This document shows positions 7,534 through 28,191 of a DNA stretch of 64,000 bases, one piece after another. The notes below the pieces were generated by a model that was not told where the DNA came from, ran no database searches, and was given only the letters and a program-made list of their open reading frames with translations. The position numbers and the translations under genes were made by a program. Within the stretch, counting starts at the first letter, position 1; every line of letters begins with the position of its first letter. Origin of the DNA: Gammaproteobacteria bacterium (GTDB lineage: Bacteria > Pseudomonadota > Gammaproteobacteria > Steroidobacterales > Steroidobacteraceae); NCBI GenBank assembly GCA_020029535.1, contig JAIBJM010000003.1:1-64000 (forward strand), written 5' to 3'.

Positions 7534-9166
7534 GCGGCGATATTGCCACATGCAGGAATTGCGTCGGTCCCCGTCGGCAACCGCGCAGCATGTCGAGCTG
7601 CGGCCTGTAGGCGGATGCCAGCACGTCGTTAAGCCCCAGCAGCGTGTGCGACAGGTTGTCGTGCGAGTACGGCCGGTCCAGTTCGTAACGGATGCAATTG
7701 GCGTCGACATGCAGCCGTGCCGGCGCCCCCGACGAGAACCACATCAGCATCGGCACCTGCTTCTGCACATCCGGGGCGATGGCATAGGGCTGGCCGTGCA
7801 GGTACAGGCCGCGCTCGCCCAGCGATTCGCCGTGATCGGAGACATAGATCAGCACCGAGTCGAACTGCTGCTGGTGCTGCTGCAGCCGATCGATCAGCGC
7901 GGCCAGTACATGATCGGTGTAGGCGATGGTGTTGTCGTAGGCATTGACGATCTGTACGTCGCTGCAGTTCTCGATGCGTTCGGTGGCACAGGTGGGCGTG
8001 AAGCGCACGAAGTCCGGCGGCACGCGCTGATGGTAGCTGGGACCGTGGCTGCCCATCTGGTGCATCACCAGCACGCTGTCACGGGTCACGCGGGTCAGCC
8101 TGGCGTCCAACGCGTACAGCAGCGCTTCGTCCAGGCATTCGCTGACGCACGACGAAGGATGGTAATGGCGTGCCTCTTCAGTGGGCACGCGGCCGCAAAC
8201 CCCCTTGCAGCCGCTCTGGTTGTCCAGCCAGCTCACGGCAAGGCCCGCCCGCTGCAGCATGTCGAGCACGCTGTCGCGACGATCCGCCATGTCGATATCG
8301 AACTCGGCGCGCGGCAGATCAGAGAACATGCAGGGCACCGACATGGCGGTGGCCGTTCCGCAGCTGCGCACATTGCTGAAATACAGCACGCCACGTTGCG
8401 CCAGCTCCGGATTGGTGGGGCGCGCGTAGCCACCCAGCGAAAAGTTCGCGGCACGCGCGGTCTCACCAACCACCAGCAACGTCAGCATGGGCTTTCCCGC
8501 AGCCCCCACAACCTTCACTGCCCGGTGCGCGTCAGCGCCGACAATGACGTACGGCGTACGGGCGTGCATGGCATCACGCACCAGCTTGCCCGCCGAGACG
8601 ATGACATTGCCCGGCACCAACAGGTGCTGCGCCACATTCTGGTTGCGGAAGAACGAGGCAAAGGACGCATACATCGGCAATGCGGCGCCAACCAGCAACA
8701 GCAGACCCAGCGCGGCGCCACGCAGGTACTGTCCCGCCGACTGCAGCCATCCCGCCGGCTTCAGTGGCACACGCCAGATCAGCAGCCAGGCGGGCAACGC
8801 CTGCCACAGCAACCGCCACAACAACGACCAGCCGATGAAGTCGCTGGCCTCGGCCGCATCGGTCTGCACGACATTGCGCAGCATCTCGCGGTCGATGCTG
8901 ACGCCGTAGGTGTCCATGAACCAGCTGCTGACAGAGGCGACCAGCACCAGCAGGGTGAGCATGACACGCACGCTGCGTCCCGGAGACAGCAGCCGCAGAA
9001 GCAGCAGGTTCAGGCCGCTGAGTGCCAGCAAAAGCGAGACCGCGAACAGCAGCGCATGAGGGCTGGCACCATTGACCCGAAACAGCAGCGACCAGAAGGC
9101 ATGGTGGGCCGTAAGCACCAGCCACATGGCCACCAGCAGACACAGACGGTTCGTATTCATCGTCAT
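7517..9166 (-). CDS. eptA: phosphoethanolamine--lipid A transferase (EptA-like)
   Basis: 549 aa; N-terminal TM region, TLLVVGETARAANFSLGGYARPTNPEL, SDHGESLGERGLYLHG sulfatase/alkaline phosphatase motifs. Confidence 0.88.
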   Translation of the reverse strand: MTMNTNRLCLLVAMWLVLTAHHAFWSLLFRVNGASPHALLFAVSLLLALSGLNLLLLRLLSPGRSVRVMLTLLVLVASVSSWFMDTYGVSIDREMLRNVVQTDAAEASDFIGWSLLWRLLWQALPAWLLIWRVPLKPAGWLQSAGQYLRGAALGLLLLVGAALPMYASFASFFRNQNVAQHLLVPGNVIVSAGKLVRDAMHARTPYVIVGADAHRAVKVVGAAGKPMLTLLVVGETARAANFSLGGYARPTNPELAQRGVLYFSNVRSCGTATAMSVPCMFSDLPRAEFDIDMADRRDSVLDMLQRAGLAVSWLDNQSGCKGVCGRVPTEEARHYHPSSCVSECLDEALLYALDARLTRVTRDSVLVMHQMGSHGPSYHQRVPPDFVRFTPTCATERIENCSDVQIVNAYDNTIAYTDHVLAALIDRLQQHQQQFDSVLIYVSDHGESLGERGLYLHGQPYAIAPDVQKQVPMLMWFSSGAPARLHVDANCIRYELDRPYSHDNLSHTLLGLNDVLASAYRPQLDMLRGCRRGPTQFLHVAISPHAFQS

Positions 9167-19866: not shown

Positions 19867-20568
19867 CTATAGAAGCGCAGATTCCAATCGAATCTTCCTT
19901 GCCGCCCAATCCGGGAGCACCTGGCTGAGCGCCGCAAAGAACCTCGCATCATGATTCCTGAACTTGAAATGACAGAGCTCGTGAGTCACGACATATTCAA
20001 TGCAGGATCGAGGCGCCTTGATCAACTTCACGTTCAAGGTCATTGCGCCGGAACGCGATAAACTGCCCCAGCGAGAACTCATTCTGCGAACGATGAGTCG
20101 CGGACACGGCAGATCATCAAACCTGGCGAGGCAGGATTCCACGACCTCCGCGAACACCATCTGGGCGCGGGCACGATACCAGCGCTCCAGCAACACGCGC
20201 GCACGCTCACGATCCGCAAGGTTGGGCAGGCTGACAAAAAGCTGGCCTCGCGCAAGCCTGATCATCGGATTGCCCCCCGGTACAAGCTTCAGCCTGTACC
20301 GCCGGCCGAGGTAGAGATGCGATTCACCGTTCACGTATTGCCGTTCCGGAGTACGGGGCCGATAGCCTTCAAACTCAGCCAACTGACGGCTGATCCAGCC
20401 GGCGCGCTTCTGCACCCTCTCGGCGACCAGGTGTTCGGGGCAACCCTTCGGTGCCCTTATCACCACACGATTGTCGGGATGCACCTCTATCGCCAACGTC
20501 CTGCGGGAGGCGAGGAAGAGCACCTCGTAGCGGATCGTCTCACTCCCCCAGTTCAGGATGCCGACCAC
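19867..20568 (-). CDS. YgjP/SprT-like (M48-type) metal-dependent hydrolase
   Basis: SSRWGSLSRSGAMTLNVKLIKAPRSCIEYVVTHELCHFKFRNHDARFFAAL, HExxH motif. Confidence 0.88.
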   Translation of the reverse strand: MVGILNWGSETIRYEVLFLASRRTLAIEVHPDNRVVIRAPKGCPEHLVAERVQKRAGWISRQLAEFEGYRPRTPERQYVNGESHLYLGRRYRLKLVPGGNPMIRLARGQLFVSLPNLADRERARVLLERWYRARAQMVFAEVVESCLARFDDLPCPRLIVRRMSSRWGSLSRSGAMTLNVKLIKAPRSCIEYVVTHELCHFKFRNHDARFFAALSQVLPDWAARKIRLESALL

Positions 20569-20571
20569 GAC

Positions 20572-23500
20572 CTACTCCGTCATCCGGTGGCGGGCCAGCT
20601 GCATCGTTCGGGCGATGATGTCGTCCATTTCGTCGGTGGTCAGCGCAATGCCACGCGCACCCTTCACCTGGTCATAGAGATAGTCATCGATGTCATTCAT
20701 CGTGCGGCGCTGCGCGTCGAGATCGTCCCAATAGCCCACCTTGCGGTTACGCCGGAAGATGCTCCACACGGCACTGGCGGCTTCGGCGGAAGCTTGCCTC
20801 GCCTGCGCAGGGTCGAATAAATGCGTTGCAATGAAAGGACTCAACAGGCCATACACTGCGGCTGCATCGGCGTCTCCGGCCAGCGAGGGCGGCAGATCGT
20901 CACCCCTGCGCGAGACCACCGCATCGCGGATCTCGGTCACGCGCCGCAGATACTCCAGATCGGAGATCCGGTTCGCGCGGTAGTCATCGATCGCCTGCTG
21001 GATGAGCTTTGAGAACTTCTCGTAGAACGCCGGATCCTTTTCCATCCGCTCGCTGATCGCCCGCTTGGTGGCATGGGCAATCATGTCGGCCTTGGCGCCC
21101 AGATTCCTGTCACTTCCAGCGCCCTGCTCTTCCACTACTTTCTGGAAGGCAGCGTCATCAAAAATGTTCACCGGCGTGTTGAGTTGCACCACCTCGGAGG
21201 CCGAGATATGCGTATCGAGCAACTTCTGGATACGGGGCTCGAAGTCGCGGTAGTCCACGGCTTCGGCGTAGCGCCGCTTCACGGCGGCCTTCAGATTGAC
21301 GAAGCGCTTCAGATCGTTGCGGTAGGTGCGCTGCTTCGGTTCCGGTGTCTCGGTGATGAAGCGCTCGCTGGACAGTGCAATCGCCAGCGTCTTCGCATAA
21401 GTCGTCAGTCGCTCGTAGAAGCCGGCCCGAATCTTTTCGTCGGCCAACAGCAGTTCAAAGGCTTCTTCATCCTGCCGGTTCTTCACGGCCTTGAAGAGAT
21501 CCCAGAGATCGGCATGGCGCTGGGGAAGGGCCCTGATCTCTTCGTTGATCGAGGTCAGCGCGCCCTTGAGGTCGGCCACATCGAAGCCGTCAAGGGCGCT
21601 GTAAGTGGTCAGCGCCTGATCCAGCTCGCCGAGCACACCCACGTAGTCGATGATGTAGCCGAATTCCTTGATCCTGCTGCCGGATTCGTCCTCGTAGAGG
21701 CGATTGACTCGCGCGATGGCCTGCAGCAGGGAGTGGTCCTTCAGCCGGCGGGCGAGATACAGCACCGTGTTGCGTGGCGCATCGAAGCCGGTCAGCAGCT
21801 TGTCGACGACGATCAGGATCTCCGGTTCGTCGCCGTTTTTGAAGGCATTGACGATGTTCTTGTTGTAGTCGTCCTCGGACCCATACCGCTTCATCATGCG
21901 CTGCCAGAAGGCCACCACCGCATCGGAAGATTCCTCTGCATCGACCTCATCGAAACCCTCGCGCTCGTCGGGCGGCGAGATGATCACCTCGCTGCTGACC
22001 GCGCCAAGTTCGTCCAGAAATGCCTTGTAGCGCAGCGCCGCCGCCTTGTTGGGTGCCACCAGCTGCGCCTTGAAGCCGGTGCCCTGCCAGTTCTGTCGGT
22101 AATGCTCGCTGATGTCGAAAGCGCGCATGTAGATCACCTGCTCGGCCTTGTTCAGCATCTCGGCGCGGGCATACTTCCTTTTCAGGTCGGCCTTCTGCTC
22201 GAGGGTCAGGCCCTGGGTGTGGCGCTCGAACCAGGTGTCAATGGCAGTCTGGTTCTGCTCCAGCTCCACCATGCGTCCCTCGTAGAGCAGCGGCACGATG
22301 GCACCATCGGCCACGGCCTGATCGATGGCATAGGTGTGGATCACGCCACCGAACCTGGCAACGTCGCTCTTCTCGCGCGTCAGCAGCGGCGTGCCCGTGA
22401 AACCGATGTAGCAGGCATTGGGAAACATCTGGCGCATCCGGGCCGAATAGCTGCCCAGCTGGGTGCGCTGGGTCTCATCCACCAGCACGAAGATGTCGGA
22501 AGAATCGTCGCTGTACTTCCTGTGGGCCAGTGCCTTGTCGAACTTGTGCACCAGCGTGGTGACGATGTGCGCCTTGCCGTCGGACATCAGCTCCAGCAGA
22601 TGGCGTCCGCTTTCGGCCCGGTCGGGCGACAGGCCGCAGGCAGCAAAGGTGTTGCCGAGCTGCTTGTCCAGGTCCACCCGATCGGTGACCAGCACGATGC
22701 GCGGGTTGCGGATCGAGGGCTCCAACGCCAGGGCCCTGGCCAGCATCACCATGGTCAGCGACTTGCCGGACCCCTGCGTGTGCCAGATGATGCCGCCGCG
22801 ACGTCGGCCGCTGCCGTCCTTCTGCCGGACCCGCGCCAGCACCTCGCGGATGGCGAACACCTGTTGATAGCGCGCGATCTTGCGCAGGCCGCCGTCGAAC
22901 ACGGTGAACGCCCAGGCCATCTCCAGCAGACGTTCCGGCCGGCACAGCGCATAAAGCGCCCGGTCCTGTTCCGTCACCTGCCGGTCCACCAGATAGGGCG
23001 CCGGGTCTTCGCGCACGCCCAGCTCGGCGAATGCCAGATCAAACAGCGAAGCCTTCACCGATTCCGGCAGCGGACGCTGCAGCAACGGGATCAGTTCGGC
23101 ATCGGCGATCTCCTCCTTCCACTTCGACCAGAACTTGGCCGGCGTGCCGGTGGTGGCGTAGCGCGCCTCATTCTTGTTCAGCGCCAACATCATCTGCGCG
23201 TAGGTGAACAGGCGCGGGATGTACTCGTCGCGCTGGTTGCGGATGGTCTGCGAGATGGCCTGGCCCACGTCGAGTTTCGGCGATTTGCATTCGATCACGA
23301 CAAAGGGAATGCCGTTGACGAACAGCACGATGTCCGGTCGGCAGGTGTCCGCACTGCGCGTGCGCTCGACCGGGAACTCCGCGGACACGTGATAGAGGTT
23401 GTTGGCCGGGTTGCGCCAGTCCACATAGTTTAGGGTGAAGCTCTTGAGATCACTTTCAACGGATTGCTCCAGCGCCACACCCAGCGTCAGCAGGTCGTAC

Positions 23501-23787
23501 ACGGCTTCATTGGTCTTCAGCAAGCCATCGTACTTGACGTTCTTCAGCCGCTGGATGGCGCTCTGGATGTTCTCCTCGCTAAAGAGGTAGCTGCCGCCCT
23601 TGTGCTGGATGCGATTCAGCTTCTTCAATTGCTCGCGAAGGATTTCTTCGAGCAACACATTACCGGTCCTGCCGCCACGGGCTGCCTGCGCTTCGGCTGG
23701 CGTCAGGTACCGGTAGCCCAGATTGATCAGCACCTGCAGGGCCGGGAGATGGGAGAGGTATTTTTCGTCGAAGCGGAAGCTGTCCAT
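20572..23787 (-). CDS. hsdR: type I restriction endonuclease subunit R
   Basis: GIIWHTQGSGKSLTMVMLARAL (Walker A), LVDETQRTQ, TGFDAPRNTVLYLARRLKDHSLLQAIARVNR; N-terminal VIECKSPK nuclease motif. Confidence 0.95.
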   Translation of the reverse strand: MDSFRFDEKYLSHLPALQVLINLGYRYLTPAEAQAARGGRTGNVLLEEILREQLKKLNRIQHKGGSYLFSEENIQSAIQRLKNVKYDGLLKTNEAVYDLLTLGVALEQSVESDLKSFTLNYVDWRNPANNLYHVSAEFPVERTRSADTCRPDIVLFVNGIPFVVIECKSPKLDVGQAISQTIRNQRDEYIPRLFTYAQMMLALNKNEARYATTGTPAKFWSKWKEEIADAELIPLLQRPLPESVKASLFDLAFAELGVREDPAPYLVDRQVTEQDRALYALCRPERLLEMAWAFTVFDGGLRKIARYQQVFAIREVLARVRQKDGSGRRRGGIIWHTQGSGKSLTMVMLARALALEPSIRNPRIVLVTDRVDLDKQLGNTFAACGLSPDRAESGRHLLELMSDGKAHIVTTLVHKFDKALAHRKYSDDSSDIFVLVDETQRTQLGSYSARMRQMFPNACYIGFTGTPLLTREKSDVARFGGVIHTYAIDQAVADGAIVPLLYEGRMVELEQNQTAIDTWFERHTQGLTLEQKADLKRKYARAEMLNKAEQVIYMRAFDISEHYRQNWQGTGFKAQLVAPNKAAALRYKAFLDELGAVSSEVIISPPDEREGFDEVDAEESSDAVVAFWQRMMKRYGSEDDYNKNIVNAFKNGDEPEILIVVDKLLTGFDAPRNTVLYLARRLKDHSLLQAIARVNRLYEDESGSRIKEFGYIIDYVGVLGELDQALTTYSALDGFDVADLKGALTSINEEIRALPQRHADLWDLFKAVKNRQDEEAFELLLADEKIRAGFYERLTTYAKTLAIALSSERFITETPEPKQRTYRNDLKRFVNLKAAVKRRYAEAVDYRDFEPRIQKLLDTHISASEVVQLNTPVNIFDDAAFQKVVEEQGAGSDRNLGAKADMIAHATKRAISERMEKDPAFYEKFSKLIQQAIDDYRANRISDLEYLRRVTEIRDAVVSRRGDDLPPSLAGDADAAAVYGLLSPFIATHLFDPAQARQASAEAASAVWSIFRRNRKVGYWDDLDAQRRTMNDIDDYLYDQVKGARGIALTTDEMDDIIARTMQLARHRMTE

Positions 23788-24971
23788 CACACGCTCTCCT
23801 GTTCCGGCAGCGGCAGCCGCCACTGGCCAGTCAGCAGCTTCTGCATCAGGCCGCGTTTCTGGGTCTTGAGCCCATCTGTGAATTTTCGAAGCAGACCGAT
23901 TTCACCCTCAGCCTCATCGAGCACAGCAGCGATAGCCTTCTGCTCGTCGACCGTCGGAAACGGCAGCTTGATCGAGCAAAAGTCCTGAAAGCTGATTTGC
24001 TTGCCGTCGCGGATGCCGATGACAGCAACTGAAAGGCGCTTGATGAAGTCGGCCGATTTGAAGTAGTGACGGAAAAACCGGCCATCGATCTCGATCACCT
24101 CTCTCAATACCGTGTAGGCAGGGCTGACTAGACCACGATAGTTCGAGTGCTCCAATCCACCCTGAAACGAACGCAAGCTAATCACGAAACTTCCCGGCTC
24201 GACGAGCTTGAAGGATCCCGTTTCACCCGACGGCATGGTGACCCGGCCTTCCAGCATGTCTCTGGGGATGACCCCTCGCTCTTGTGTTACCGAGAGCAGC
24301 GGCTCGTTTAGGTGACCCTTACGAGACGTGTTCTCGAAAACTTCGTCCGCGCGCCGTAGTCCCCACCGTGTCGAGAAGCCATTCAGTCGTTTACGTGAGG
24401 TGAGTAGGAGGTGCGAGGTGGCCGCGAAGTGCCGCTCCTTCGCCGCGATCAGTTGCTCGGCTTTCTGGATGGCGGTGTCCCATCCAACTAGGATTTCAGC
24501 GATCCTCTCTTGCTCTGGAAGCGACGGGAGGAGCATGCGCAGTTCGCGAATCAATCCAGCATTCAGGTTCTGCTGCCCACTGCTGTTGCTCGCGTTGCGA
24601 ATCTCTTCGTAGCGAAACAAAAGCTGTTGATAGACGTATCTGCTATTGGCCTCATCGCTCAAGATGATCGCCGCACAGTTCTGGTTGATTGCGGCAGCAG
24701 TGGCGAGGACTGCAACCTGCCCCCGAGTCTTCCCTTGACCAACCATGGCCATCAGGATTGACCCAGCCGGGATCAGTTTCGCGGACGAGCTCTTGAGGCC
24801 GGCTTCTGTGATCTTTTCGTCGATGTCCTCTGGGCCAATCTCGCAGTTCTGAACGAGAGTCGTCTTGACCCAAGGGACTGTGCCTCCCCAGTAGGCGGGG
24901 TTCTCGCGATCCGGCGTACCGCCCGATGTGATCTTGGCGATGCTTCCCAAGGTAACGGTGCGGGTAGTCAC
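23787..24971 (-). CDS. hsdS: type I restriction-modification specificity subunit
   Basis: GSIAKITSGGTPDRENPAYWGGTVPWVKTTLV...LPSLPEQERIAEIL...LPFPTVDEQKAIAAVLDEAEGEI; two target-recognition halves; GTG start. Confidence 0.92.
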   Translation of the reverse strand: MTTRTVTLGSIAKITSGGTPDRENPAYWGGTVPWVKTTLVQNCEIGPEDIDEKITEAGLKSSSAKLIPAGSILMAMVGQGKTRGQVAVLATAAAINQNCAAIILSDEANSRYVYQQLLFRYEEIRNASNSSGQQNLNAGLIRELRMLLPSLPEQERIAEILVGWDTAIQKAEQLIAAKERHFAATSHLLLTSRKRLNGFSTRWGLRRADEVFENTSRKGHLNEPLLSVTQERGVIPRDMLEGRVTMPSGETGSFKLVEPGSFVISLRSFQGGLEHSNYRGLVSPAYTVLREVIEIDGRFFRHYFKSADFIKRLSVAVIGIRDGKQISFQDFCSIKLPFPTVDEQKAIAAVLDEAEGEIGLLRKFTDGLKTQKRGLMQKLLTGQWRLPLPEQESV

Positions 24972-25978
24972 TTCTTCTTCCCCTGTCCCTTGCCTTCCAG
25001 TTGCCGTTCGGCGTTCTCCAGCGCCTCCATATCCTCGGCATCCGCCGCCAACCGCGTTACATCGCGCCTCGCGGTGTCGAAGCTCTCGTAACGCTCCAGC
25101 ACCAGCTTCTCCGCCACGTCGGCGCGCAACTTGCCGGCGTGGGTCAGCACCTCGCGTTCATTGAACTGCAGGAAGGCATCGAGCTTGTCTTCCCAGTCGC
25201 GCATGGTCAGGGTGCGGCGGCGTTGGGCCTGGTCCTCGGCATAGTCGAGGTACATGACGACGATGCGATCGAGGGACTCAATCTCATCCTTGCTCAGATA
25301 ATTCTTGGCGATAGTGACGTCCTGCTTGCGCACCCGGCCGCCCTGCCAGGTGGTCAGGCCCATGTTAGGCAATGCGGGGTCGGCGCGACCGGCGATGAGT
25401 TCAGGCGCGGTGTGACCAGTGACGGCCCACAACATCTTGTTCTGCACTTTCTTGAAGAACAGCTGCGCCGCCTCGGACTTGCCGTCGTAGTCCACGGCCG
25501 TGGCGTAGATGTCGCGGATCTTCTGGTAGAAGCGCTTCTCCGAGGCACGGATGTCGCGGATGCGCGCCAGCAGCTCGTCGAAGTAGTCCCAGCCGCCGGG
25601 CTCCTTGAGCCGGGCGTCGTCGAGCACGAAGCCCTTCACCAGGTATTCGCGCAGGTGGGTGGTGGCCCACCGCCGGAACTGGGTGCCGCGCGGAGAGCGT
25701 ACCCGGTAGCCCACCGCCAGAATCATCTCCAGGCTGTAAGCCTTTGTTTTGTAGTTCTTTCCGTCGGCGGCAGTTGTCAAGTATTCCTTGACAACTGCCG
25801 GCGTCAGCTCGTCTTCAGCCAGGACATTCCTGATGTGCAGGCTGACGTTCTGCTTGGACGTGCCAAAGAGCGTGGCCATCTCGAGCTGGGTGAGCCACAC
25901 GGTGCCTTCCTCAGCACGGAGCTGGACGGCGGCGTGACCGTCGTCCGTGGTGTAGAGGATCAGCTCGCCGCTGGTCAC
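24968..25978 (-). CDS. RhuM-family protein
   Basis: LILYTTDDGHAAVQLRAEEGTVWLTQLEMATLFGTSKQNVSLHIRNVLAEDEL...YSLEMILAVGYRVRSPRGTQFRRWATTHLREYLVKGF; GTG start overlapping the hsdM stop by 4 nt. Confidence 0.9.
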   Translation of the reverse strand: MTSGELILYTTDDGHAAVQLRAEEGTVWLTQLEMATLFGTSKQNVSLHIRNVLAEDELTPAVVKEYLTTAADGKNYKTKAYSLEMILAVGYRVRSPRGTQFRRWATTHLREYLVKGFVLDDARLKEPGGWDYFDELLARIRDIRASEKRFYQKIRDIYATAVDYDGKSEAAQLFFKKVQNKMLWAVTGHTAPELIAGRADPALPNMGLTTWQGGRVRKQDVTIAKNYLSKDEIESLDRIVVMYLDYAEDQAQRRRTLTMRDWEDKLDAFLQFNEREVLTHAGKLRADVAEKLVLERYESFDTARRDVTRLAADAEDMEALENAERQLEGKGQGKKK

Positions 25979-27534
25979 AGGCCCAGCTCCTTCAGGTATT
26001 GCTTCATCTTCGCGCGCACCTCGACCAACTCGGCCTCGAGCCGCTCGATCTCCTGCTCCACCGCGGCGACGTCGATCTCCTGCTCTTCCTCGAAGGTGTC
26101 GACGTAGCGCGGGATGTTGAGGTTGAAGTCGTTGTCGGCGACCTCCTGGAGGCTGGCGACGTGGGCGTACTTGTCCACCGGCTGCCGGGCGCGGAAGGTG
26201 GCGAGCACCTTGGCCATGTGCGTATCGAGCAGGGCGTTCTGGTTCTTGCCGGACTGGTAGTCGCGGCTGGCGTCGATGAACAGCACGTCGCGGCAATCCT
26301 CGCGCGTACCGCTCTTCTCGCGCGCGCGGTCGAACACCAGGATGGCCACCGGAATGGACGTGGTGGGAAACAGGTTGCCCGGCAGACCGATCACGGCATC
26401 GAGCAGGTTCTCCTCGATCAGCGCGCGACGGATGCGGCCTTCGGCGCCACCGCGGAACAGCACGCCATGGGGCACCACCACGGCTACGCGGCCTTCCTGC
26501 GGCAGCGCGGTCTCAATCATGTGGGTGATGAAGGCGTAGTCACCCTTGGACTTCGGCGGCAGACCGCGCCAGAAGCGGTTGTAGCGATCGGCCTCGAGCT
26601 CCTTGCCGCCCCACTTGTCGAGGCTGAACGGCGGATTGGCCACCACCACGTTGAAACGCATCAGGCGGTCGGCCTCCACCAGCGCCGGACTGTTGAGCGT
26701 GTCGCCCCACTCGATGCGGGCGGCGTCCTTGCCATGCAGGAACATGTTCATGCGCGCCAGCGCCCAGGTGCTGCCGTTGACCTCCTGTCCGAACAGCGCG
26801 AAGTTGCAGCTGCCCTGCTGCACCACCAACTGCGCGGCTTCGATCAGCAGGCCGCCGGCACCGCAAGTGGGATCGCAGATGCGGTCGCCGGGCATGGGCG
26901 CGGCCAGTTGCGCGAGCAACTTGGAGACCTGCTTGGGCGTATAGAACTCGCCCGCCTTCTTGCCGGCGTCAGAGGCAAAGCGTTCGATTAAATAGATGTA
27001 GGTGTCACCGATCACATCCTCGGAGACGCGCGAAGGCCGCAGATCCAGCTTGGCGAAATCGCCCAGCAGCGTTTCCAGCCGCCGATTGCGGTCCTTGGTC
27101 TTGCCGAGATTGGCCTCTGAGTTGAAGTCGATGTTGCGGAACACGCCTTCGAGCTTGGCCTTGTTGGCCTCCTCGATGTGATCGAGCACGATGTTGATCA
27201 GCTCGCCGAGATTGGCCGCCTTGCGCCGCTCGTACAGCGAATGGAAATCCGCGAGAAAACGCTCGGTGACCTTGCCGGTCTTCTCGTCCTTGAACTCGAC
27301 ATAGGGCAGTAGAAAGCGCTCGCGTTCCAGCTTGCGGCGGATGCGCTCTTCGTTGTCGCCGTACTCCTTGCGGTATTCGGCGTAGTGGTCGGCCCACAGG
27401 TCGCTGATGTACTTCAGGAACAGCATCACCAGGATGTAGTCCTTGTACTGCGCCGGATCGACGACGCCACGAAAGGTATCGCAGGCGGCCCACGCGGTGT
27501 TGTTGACGTCCTGTTGAGAGAGCTGATCGGTCAT
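25975..27534 (-). CDS. hsdM: type I restriction-modification N-6 DNA methyltransferase
   Basis: GEFYTPKQVSKLLAQLAAPMPGDRICDPTCGAGGLLIEAA; VVVANPPFSLDKW (NPPF). Confidence 0.95.
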   Translation of the reverse strand: MTDQLSQQDVNNTAWAACDTFRGVVDPAQYKDYILVMLFLKYISDLWADHYAEYRKEYGDNEERIRRKLERERFLLPYVEFKDEKTGKVTERFLADFHSLYERRKAANLGELINIVLDHIEEANKAKLEGVFRNIDFNSEANLGKTKDRNRRLETLLGDFAKLDLRPSRVSEDVIGDTYIYLIERFASDAGKKAGEFYTPKQVSKLLAQLAAPMPGDRICDPTCGAGGLLIEAAQLVVQQGSCNFALFGQEVNGSTWALARMNMFLHGKDAARIEWGDTLNSPALVEADRLMRFNVVVANPPFSLDKWGGKELEADRYNRFWRGLPPKSKGDYAFITHMIETALPQEGRVAVVVPHGVLFRGGAEGRIRRALIEENLLDAVIGLPGNLFPTTSIPVAILVFDRAREKSGTREDCRDVLFIDASRDYQSGKNQNALLDTHMAKVLATFRARQPVDKYAHVASLQEVADNDFNLNIPRYVDTFEEEQEIDVAAVEQEIERLEAELVEVRAKMKQYLKELGL

Positions 27535-28100
27535 GGTGTGTTCTCGCGGGCAGTTTTCATCAGTAGGTCGTATGTCAGGCGATGACGCAGCGTGGCGATG
27601 CGCGTCTGGAGGAATTGCTCTTTTCCGGCAAGAGCTGCGGCCTGGACAATGCGTTGCTGAACGGCCAGTGCGGGCAAGGGAACATCCAGCGATCGCAGCG
27701 CTTCTGCACTGATCATCCGCACCGAAGTGCCTTCCGACAGCGCGGCAAACTGGGCCTGCACGGCCGGTGAGTTGATGTACCAGCATAGATATTCGGGAAG
27801 CGCGCCGTGCGGCCGGATCAGCAGCATCGGCGCCGCCAGCACGGCAGCACCGATGTCGACCTGCACCTGCGCGGCGCCGTTACTGCGGCCGCGCGAACGG
27901 AACAACACATCGCCCACGCGCAGCAGGTGGCGTGGCTGGGCCCTCGGCAACACCACACGAACGGCATTGTCGGCATGCAGCAGATTGGCATCGTCGATGT
28001 CCTTCATCTGGATCACCGCGATATCGCCCATCGGATCTGGCTCCAGGCGGGAGCGGAAGGGGTAGCCCATCCTTATTTCTGCTAGCTCGCCCAAGATCAT
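27531..28100 (-). CDS. half-size HsdS-like specificity protein (single TRD)
   Basis: 189 aa LGELAEIRMGYPFRSRLEPDPMGDIAVIQMKDID...ISAEALRSLDVPLPALAVQQRIVQAAALAGKEQ; overlaps hsdM by 4 nt. Confidence 0.78.
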   Translation of the reverse strand: MILGELAEIRMGYPFRSRLEPDPMGDIAVIQMKDIDDANLLHADNAVRVVLPRAQPRHLLRVGDVLFRSRGRSNGAAQVQVDIGAAVLAAPMLLIRPHGALPEYLCWYINSPAVQAQFAALSEGTSVRMISAEALRSLDVPLPALAVQQRIVQAAALAGKEQFLQTRIATLRHRLTYDLLMKTARENTP

Positions 28101-28112
28101 GCGCAGGAACGC

Positions 28113-28178
28113 CGTTACGACATTTGTCGATTGTAGGCAGAATATCCGGCACGCGGATGCGTGTCAATTGTCGTAACG
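28113..28178. promoter_or_regulatory. inverted repeat upstream of the type I RM operon
   Basis: CGTTACGACATTTG (28113-28126) / CAATTGTCGTAACG (28165-28178): 13 of 14 positions match as an inverted repeat. Confidence 0.5.
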
Positions 28179-28191
28179 AGATTTCTACAAC

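Follow-up and report, generated by a model that had tools for sequence, protein, structure and literature searches.

What does a half-size specificity subunit do in a type I restriction-modification operon that also encodes a complete one? This question is raised by a six-gene operon on the minus strand (positions 28100-19867) of the window, a 64,000-nucleotide stretch of DNA from a gammaproteobacterial (Steroidobacteraceae) assembly. The operon encodes half-hsdS (half-S hereafter), hsdM, rhuM, hsdS, hsdR, and ygjP, in this order (Table 1). All six ORFs are intact, and successive genes overlap by 4, 4, 4, and 1 nt before a 3-nt gap separates hsdR from ygjP. Half-S is the first operon gene and lies 91 nt behind the preceding gene. 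The presence of hsdM, a two-TRD hsdS, and hsdR in one operon, with their catalytic motifs intact, identifies a type I restriction-modification system, and domain searches concur with all six gene labels. A sequence-only reading of the window had proposed these genes in this order as a single translationally coupled operon, and the intact frames, tight junctions, and family profiles bear it out.

Table 1. Genes and predicted regulatory sites of the operon, in window coordinates.
Feature	Position	Strand	Description
half-hsdS	27531..28100	-	189 aa; one TRD and one 42-residue C-terminal helix; Methylase_S once (7.7e-5)
hsdM	25975..27534	-	519 aa; N6-adenine methyltransferase; HsdM_N and N6_Mtase; NPPF and DPTCGAGG motifs; TIGR00497 above cut-off
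rhuM	24968..25978	-	GTG start, 336 aa; Virulence_RhuM (4.5e-112); slot 1 cargo between M and S
hsdS	23787..24971	-	GTG start, 394 aa; full two-TRD; Methylase_S twice
hsdR	20572..23787	-	1071 aa; restriction/translocase; HSDR_N and SWI2_SNF2; TIGR00348 above cut-off; PD...ECK, Walker A
ygjP-like zinc metalloprotease	19867..20568	-	GTG start, 233 aa; YgjP-like (1.9e-56); HELCH...NHD intact
candidate operator 1, GTAGAAATCTCGTTACGAC	28170..28188	-	just upstream of -35 box; one of two exact genome-wide matches
predicted sigma-70 promoter TTGACA-N17-TATTCT	28139..28167	-	10/12 consensus; 0.2 expected in shuffles
candidate operator 2, GCAGGAACGCCGTTACGAC	28103..28121	+	between predicted start site and half-S ATG; second exact match

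The six-gene operon is a real and widespread form of bacterial restriction defence, of which half-S is a fixed component and not a spare specificity. A conserved chassis with the order half-S, M, slot 1, S, slot 2, R, YgjP occurs across several phyla. One scan of genome contigs with half-S returned 358 relatives, and the 80 that were kept come from records that include Pseudomonadota, Gracilimonas, Planctomycetota, Nitrospirae, Verrucomicrobiia, Acidobacteria, and others. A tblastn search with half-S identified further relatives on 58 plasmids, where nine of ten annotated regions contain the full chassis (half-S, M, S, R, SprT/YgjP) and the tenth, on a Bacteroides plasmid, contains only half-S and M. 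Within 90 loci recruited by half-S, M lies downstream of half-S in 89, hsdS, hsdR, and ygjP come next on contigs of sufficient length, and YgjP lies directly behind R in all 68 scorable loci, a gene order far beyond chance. The R-YgjP junction is a 4-nt overlap in 50 of these 68 loci and the two genes are separated in none, while half-S and hsdM share an ATGA-type 4-nt overlap in 31 loci.

Sampling without selection for half-S, in which HsdR was the query against two genome sets (369 and 399 genomes) and 33 loci were inspected, agrees with this architecture. Half-S precedes M in all seven intact loci of the close clade and is present in 12 of 15 loci of a clade of ~40-46% identity (one copy is truncated; L201-L203 lack it). 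YgjP lies behind R in every HsdR-sampled locus that reaches that far, including L206 and L207, two more distant HsdR-YgjP systems in which HsdM is 818-820 aa with a long C-terminal extension and half-S is absent. Three same-family E. coli systems (L211-L213; HsdR about 39% identical) also lack half-S and keep R and YgjP. These HsdR-based loci and E. coli systems therefore mark YgjP as the more constant partner and half-S as common but not obligatory.

The two slots hold variable genes. The M-S gap exceeds 300 nt in 48 of 78 loci and the S-R gap does so in 49 of 71. The most frequent M-S cargo is RhuM (about 23 loci by gene order), alongside Bro-N, Fic, patatin, CD-NTase, and YhcG proteins, and the S-R cargo comprises DUF6119, DUF3800, PD-T4-6 type kinases, Abi_2, AbiH, TIR, SEFIR, KwaB-like, Shedu, and more. 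The earlier remark that RhuM and HsdR-linked metalloproteases are seen at restriction-modification loci is thus confirmed for relatives of this operon. In a gammaproteobacterial clade (L028-L040, L049), ~660 nt containing two conserved small ORFs (81 and 76 aa) separate half-S from M, a possible third cargo site.

The window RhuM matches the RhuM family profile (PF13310) over the domain and is recognized by PADLOC as candidate PDC-S05; its predicted structure is of low confidence (pLDDT 70.6, pTM 0.45), and a PDB search with it gave no match. From its slot and its PADLOC candidate label, we infer that RhuM may serve as an interchangeable second-line defence cargo. YgjP, which is translationally coupled to hsdR, probably restrains restriction by trimming HsdR or other subunits of the complex, a dedicated form of restriction alleviation proposed by analogy with ClpXP, which acts on HsdR (PMC12255303). 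A literature search for YgjP or COG1451 together with restriction-modification found nothing on function.

The sequence-only reading had further suggested that half-S dimers and full S would provide alternative specificities. We compared the identity of each component with HsdM identity across 68 complete systems. HsdR and YgjP track HsdM (Spearman 0.91 and 0.86), and so does the half-S TRD (Spearman 0.87), though recruitment of the loci by half-S similarity somewhat inflates half-S conservation. TRD1 and TRD2 of full HsdS, by contrast, are decoupled from HsdM (Spearman 0.27 and 0.38) and are about 21-24% identical even where HsdM identity exceeds 80%. The recruitment bias would not easily create either the half-S/HsdM correlation or the contrast with TRDs of the same loci. 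A swappable specificity would show TRDs that vary independently of HsdM phylogeny; half-S does not, and its TRD is inherited with the HsdM/HsdR/YgjP chassis. A search for recombination repeats found none shared by half-S and hsdS, the only pair being an imperfect 20-nt inverted one located in hsdS and hsdM (24833/27198), and the locus contains no recombinase linking half-S and hsdS. Half-S also has no close similarity to hsdS and is tied to a conserved operator pair at its own promoter. The co-divergence test and the lack of half-S/hsdS repeats led us to reject alternative or phase-variable specificity.

Half-S itself has the composition of a half subunit, namely one TRD and one dimerization helix. 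The half-size Specificity_I model of PADLOC (PDLC03199, 208 aa) spans nearly its whole length, and its AlphaFold2 model (pLDDT 91.3) shows one TRD followed by a 42-residue terminal helix (145-186). The nearest solved fold over the entire chain is Streptococcus Esub1 (8vsr/8vsq; TM about 0.74, about 20% identity), followed by the specificity subunits of BsaXI, PacII, and EcoKI. Some half-S residues are invariant across phyla, and a search of phage records for half-S gave no match.

Two bipartite inverted repeats, GTAGAAATCTCGTTACGAC and GCAGGAACGCCGTTACGAC, flank the predicted half-S promoter. Across the 2.87-Mb genome, the pattern GYAGRANNNNNGTTACGAC is matched perfectly only by these two sites, both at this promoter (0.03 expected in the window), and L175 and L176 (half-S 76% identical) retain the two sites. 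The operon thus has dedicated operator-type sites at its own promoter, as would a system with a controller. Other half-S promoters contain CTGTA-N7/8-TACAG pairs (in Alphaproteobacteria) or GCATCA-N7-TGATGC (in another clade), and the paired sites frequently lie near -88 and -28 relative to the start codon. Under a class A scoring model (GCWGWA-N6..8-TWCWGC), 57 of 90 half-S promoters have paired sites at p<=0.05 versus 4.5 expected, although the model was read off the same promoters, so that p-values are not independent and are optimistic for the loci used to see it. Scores >=20 occur in 52% of half-S promoters and in 1.8% of real control windows. Of the plasmid and HsdR-based loci, which this bias affects less, 6 of 10 and 11 of 19 were typed. 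Adding a second half-site class (class B) brings the typed half-S loci to 60 of 90, versus 0 of 6 loci without half-S, a small group in which three are closely related E. coli loci. The window is among the 30 untyped half-S loci when scored alone (p 0.129), and the case for its sites rests on position, conservation in L175 and L176, and uniqueness in the genome. A generic search for paired 5-nt inverted repeats reached p<=0.05 in 30 of 90 loci; it is less sensitive because sites of the window type are imperfect palindromes.

Among loci with two strong sites, 13 of 17 sequence clusters show matching spacers within the locus, against 7.5 expected (permutation p 0.002), a pattern that a single dimer with a fixed geometry should give. 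A LexA box is CTG-N10-CAG, and we rejected this reading of the sites because their spacers are 1-2 nt longer and are matched within loci.

Which protein might read these sites? Half-site class follows half-S, with identity of 44.5% within class A, 40.4% within class B, and 29.0% between them. Overall, half-S and HsdM vary together, and few discordant loci tell the two apart. L191 combines an HsdM of the class B clade with a non-B half-S and a class A operator, L021 combines a neutral HsdM with a B-like half-S and a B operator, and L178 and L024 have a divergent half-S and neither operator class; L184 and L198 are weaker, less clear discordant cases. Host taxonomy fails to explain the classes, because both occur in Gammaproteobacteria, and class A operators are also found in Alphaproteobacteria and in Gracilimonas. 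The loci have no other regulator gene in common, and the window contains no RptR-like gene before half-S.

Binding of half-S and HsdM to the candidate operators is something we infer from patterns in the sequences, and it would take the following form. Two half-S chains would pair through their C-terminal helices and associate with two HsdM, so that an inverted bipartite site would be read. The resulting M2(half-S)2 would occupy, and perhaps methylate, both operators around the promoter and repress the operon that encodes it, so that production of endonuclease and cargo would be coupled to how much modification enzyme is present, while ordinary restriction would be done by full HsdS with M and R. 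We lean towards the view that this is a distinct type I chassis in which half-S is the controller, binding the paired promoter sites, probably as M2(half-S)2, to autoregulate the operon. More tentatively, and with slightly more doubt than confidence, we propose that half of a type I specificity subunit has turned into a dedicated transcriptional autoregulator, such that M2(half-S)2 reads and perhaps methylates the operators and the methyltransferase senses and sets expression of the endonuclease and its exchangeable cargo. Two points count against a controller role: half-S is sometimes lost from loci that keep R and YgjP (L201-L203, L211-L213), and type I S subunits reportedly need M to bind DNA (PMC3874165).

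Half-S could instead be a second, fixed specificity, with M2(half-S)2 methylating (and with R restricting) a palindromic bipartite motif genome-wide, the promoter sites being two of many targets. This is compatible with a half-S fold in which both the TRD and the helix of a working half subunit are complete, with engineered half-S enzymes derived from EcoDXXI that recognize palindromic sites (PMC3874165), and with an operator geometry (two half-sites 6-8 nt apart) like that of type I sites. We nevertheless consider it unlikely, since domain swapping would be expected under phage pressure and the half-S TRD shows none, and since the full-length site occurs only twice in the genome, both times at the promoter, though a shorter core would be more frequent.

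The operators could also be bound by another regulator (a host factor or unlinked repressor), leaving half-S as an assembly factor, a competitor of full S for HsdM, or an anti-restriction sensor. The sites do look like ordinary repressor operators, the E. coli relatives without half-S have different palindromes at the same place, and Esub1 was crystallized with the phage protein paratox (Prx), as might suit a sensor of phage anti-restriction. Against this, operator class is independent of host taxonomy, neither class appears in the six loci without half-S, and the loci share no other regulator gene; we therefore judge this improbable. That half-S is a decaying, functionless remnant of a duplicated hsdS would fit its loss or truncation in L201-L203 and L205 but is very hard to credit for a gene that is intact, has residues invariant across phyla, overlaps hsdM by the same 4 nt in 31 loci, and is co-inherited with the system.

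A controller at the head of a type I operon has a precedent. The RRDM island of EPEC (PMC12255303) has the order rptR-hsdM-hsdS-darTG2-hsdR-M48, in which RptR, the first gene product, represses its own operon through palindromic sites. The chassis and this island both begin with a small gene, continue with M and S, hold defence genes between S and R, end with a metallopeptidase, and have a multi-palindrome promoter. The position of RptR is thus a precedent for half-S as operon controller. In the window, R is followed by an M48/YgjP-type metallopeptidase and cargo is embedded, but the first gene is not rptR: RptR is a 79 aa helical repressor binding TAGCTA, unlike half-HsdS, and the cargo of the island is DarTG2, with no M-S slot cargo described in the parts consulted (PMC12255303).

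Embedded defence genes are familiar from other type I loci. EcoprrI carries the second-line gene prrC within a type IC hsd operon (PMC3874165, PMC2610378); PrrC, however, is an anticodon nuclease that the enzyme complex keeps silent, whereas here the cargo is RhuM and half-S precedes hsdM. Campylobacter jejuni rlo genes and V. cholerae TgvAB are likewise inserted within type I loci, and the consulted parts of these reports describe no half-S controller (PMC2610378, PMC11411939). Multi-hsdS switching systems (the SpnIV tvr locus, duplicated hsdS in REBASE) also have more than one hsdS gene per locus, but the window locus lacks a recombinase gene and shared repeats, and its half-S is not exchanged. 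Type II C proteins offer an analogy as operon-encoded controllers at their own promoters, though they are small HTH proteins and the controller proposed here would be a specificity-subunit domain. Esub1, compared by structure alone, provides a free-standing half-S-like fold.

The usual explanation for how type I systems spare a new host is that ClpXP acts on HsdR. If our reading is correct, this chassis would bring along a controller and a protease of its own, specificity-subunit domains would gain a regulatory role, and operator sites would be predicted for hundreds of systems (given the 358 half-S relatives in one scan). The chassis would also define two slots as places to look for candidate defence genes such as RhuM.

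Three minor observations accompany these results. Seven alphaproteobacterial loci (L066, L067, L068, L071, L078, L083, L090) have a similar small ORF (about 120-145 aa, RGGRK) just upstream of half-S, which suggests a common integration context. An ARAGORN tRNA-Ser (cga) on the plus strand (26175-26262) falls inside hsdM and is probably spurious. On contig C53 of genome G000 (L208, ~7570-7880, minus strand), an N-terminal HsdM fragment adjoins a C-terminal YgjP fragment, as though a second system of this kind had been deleted from the same genome.
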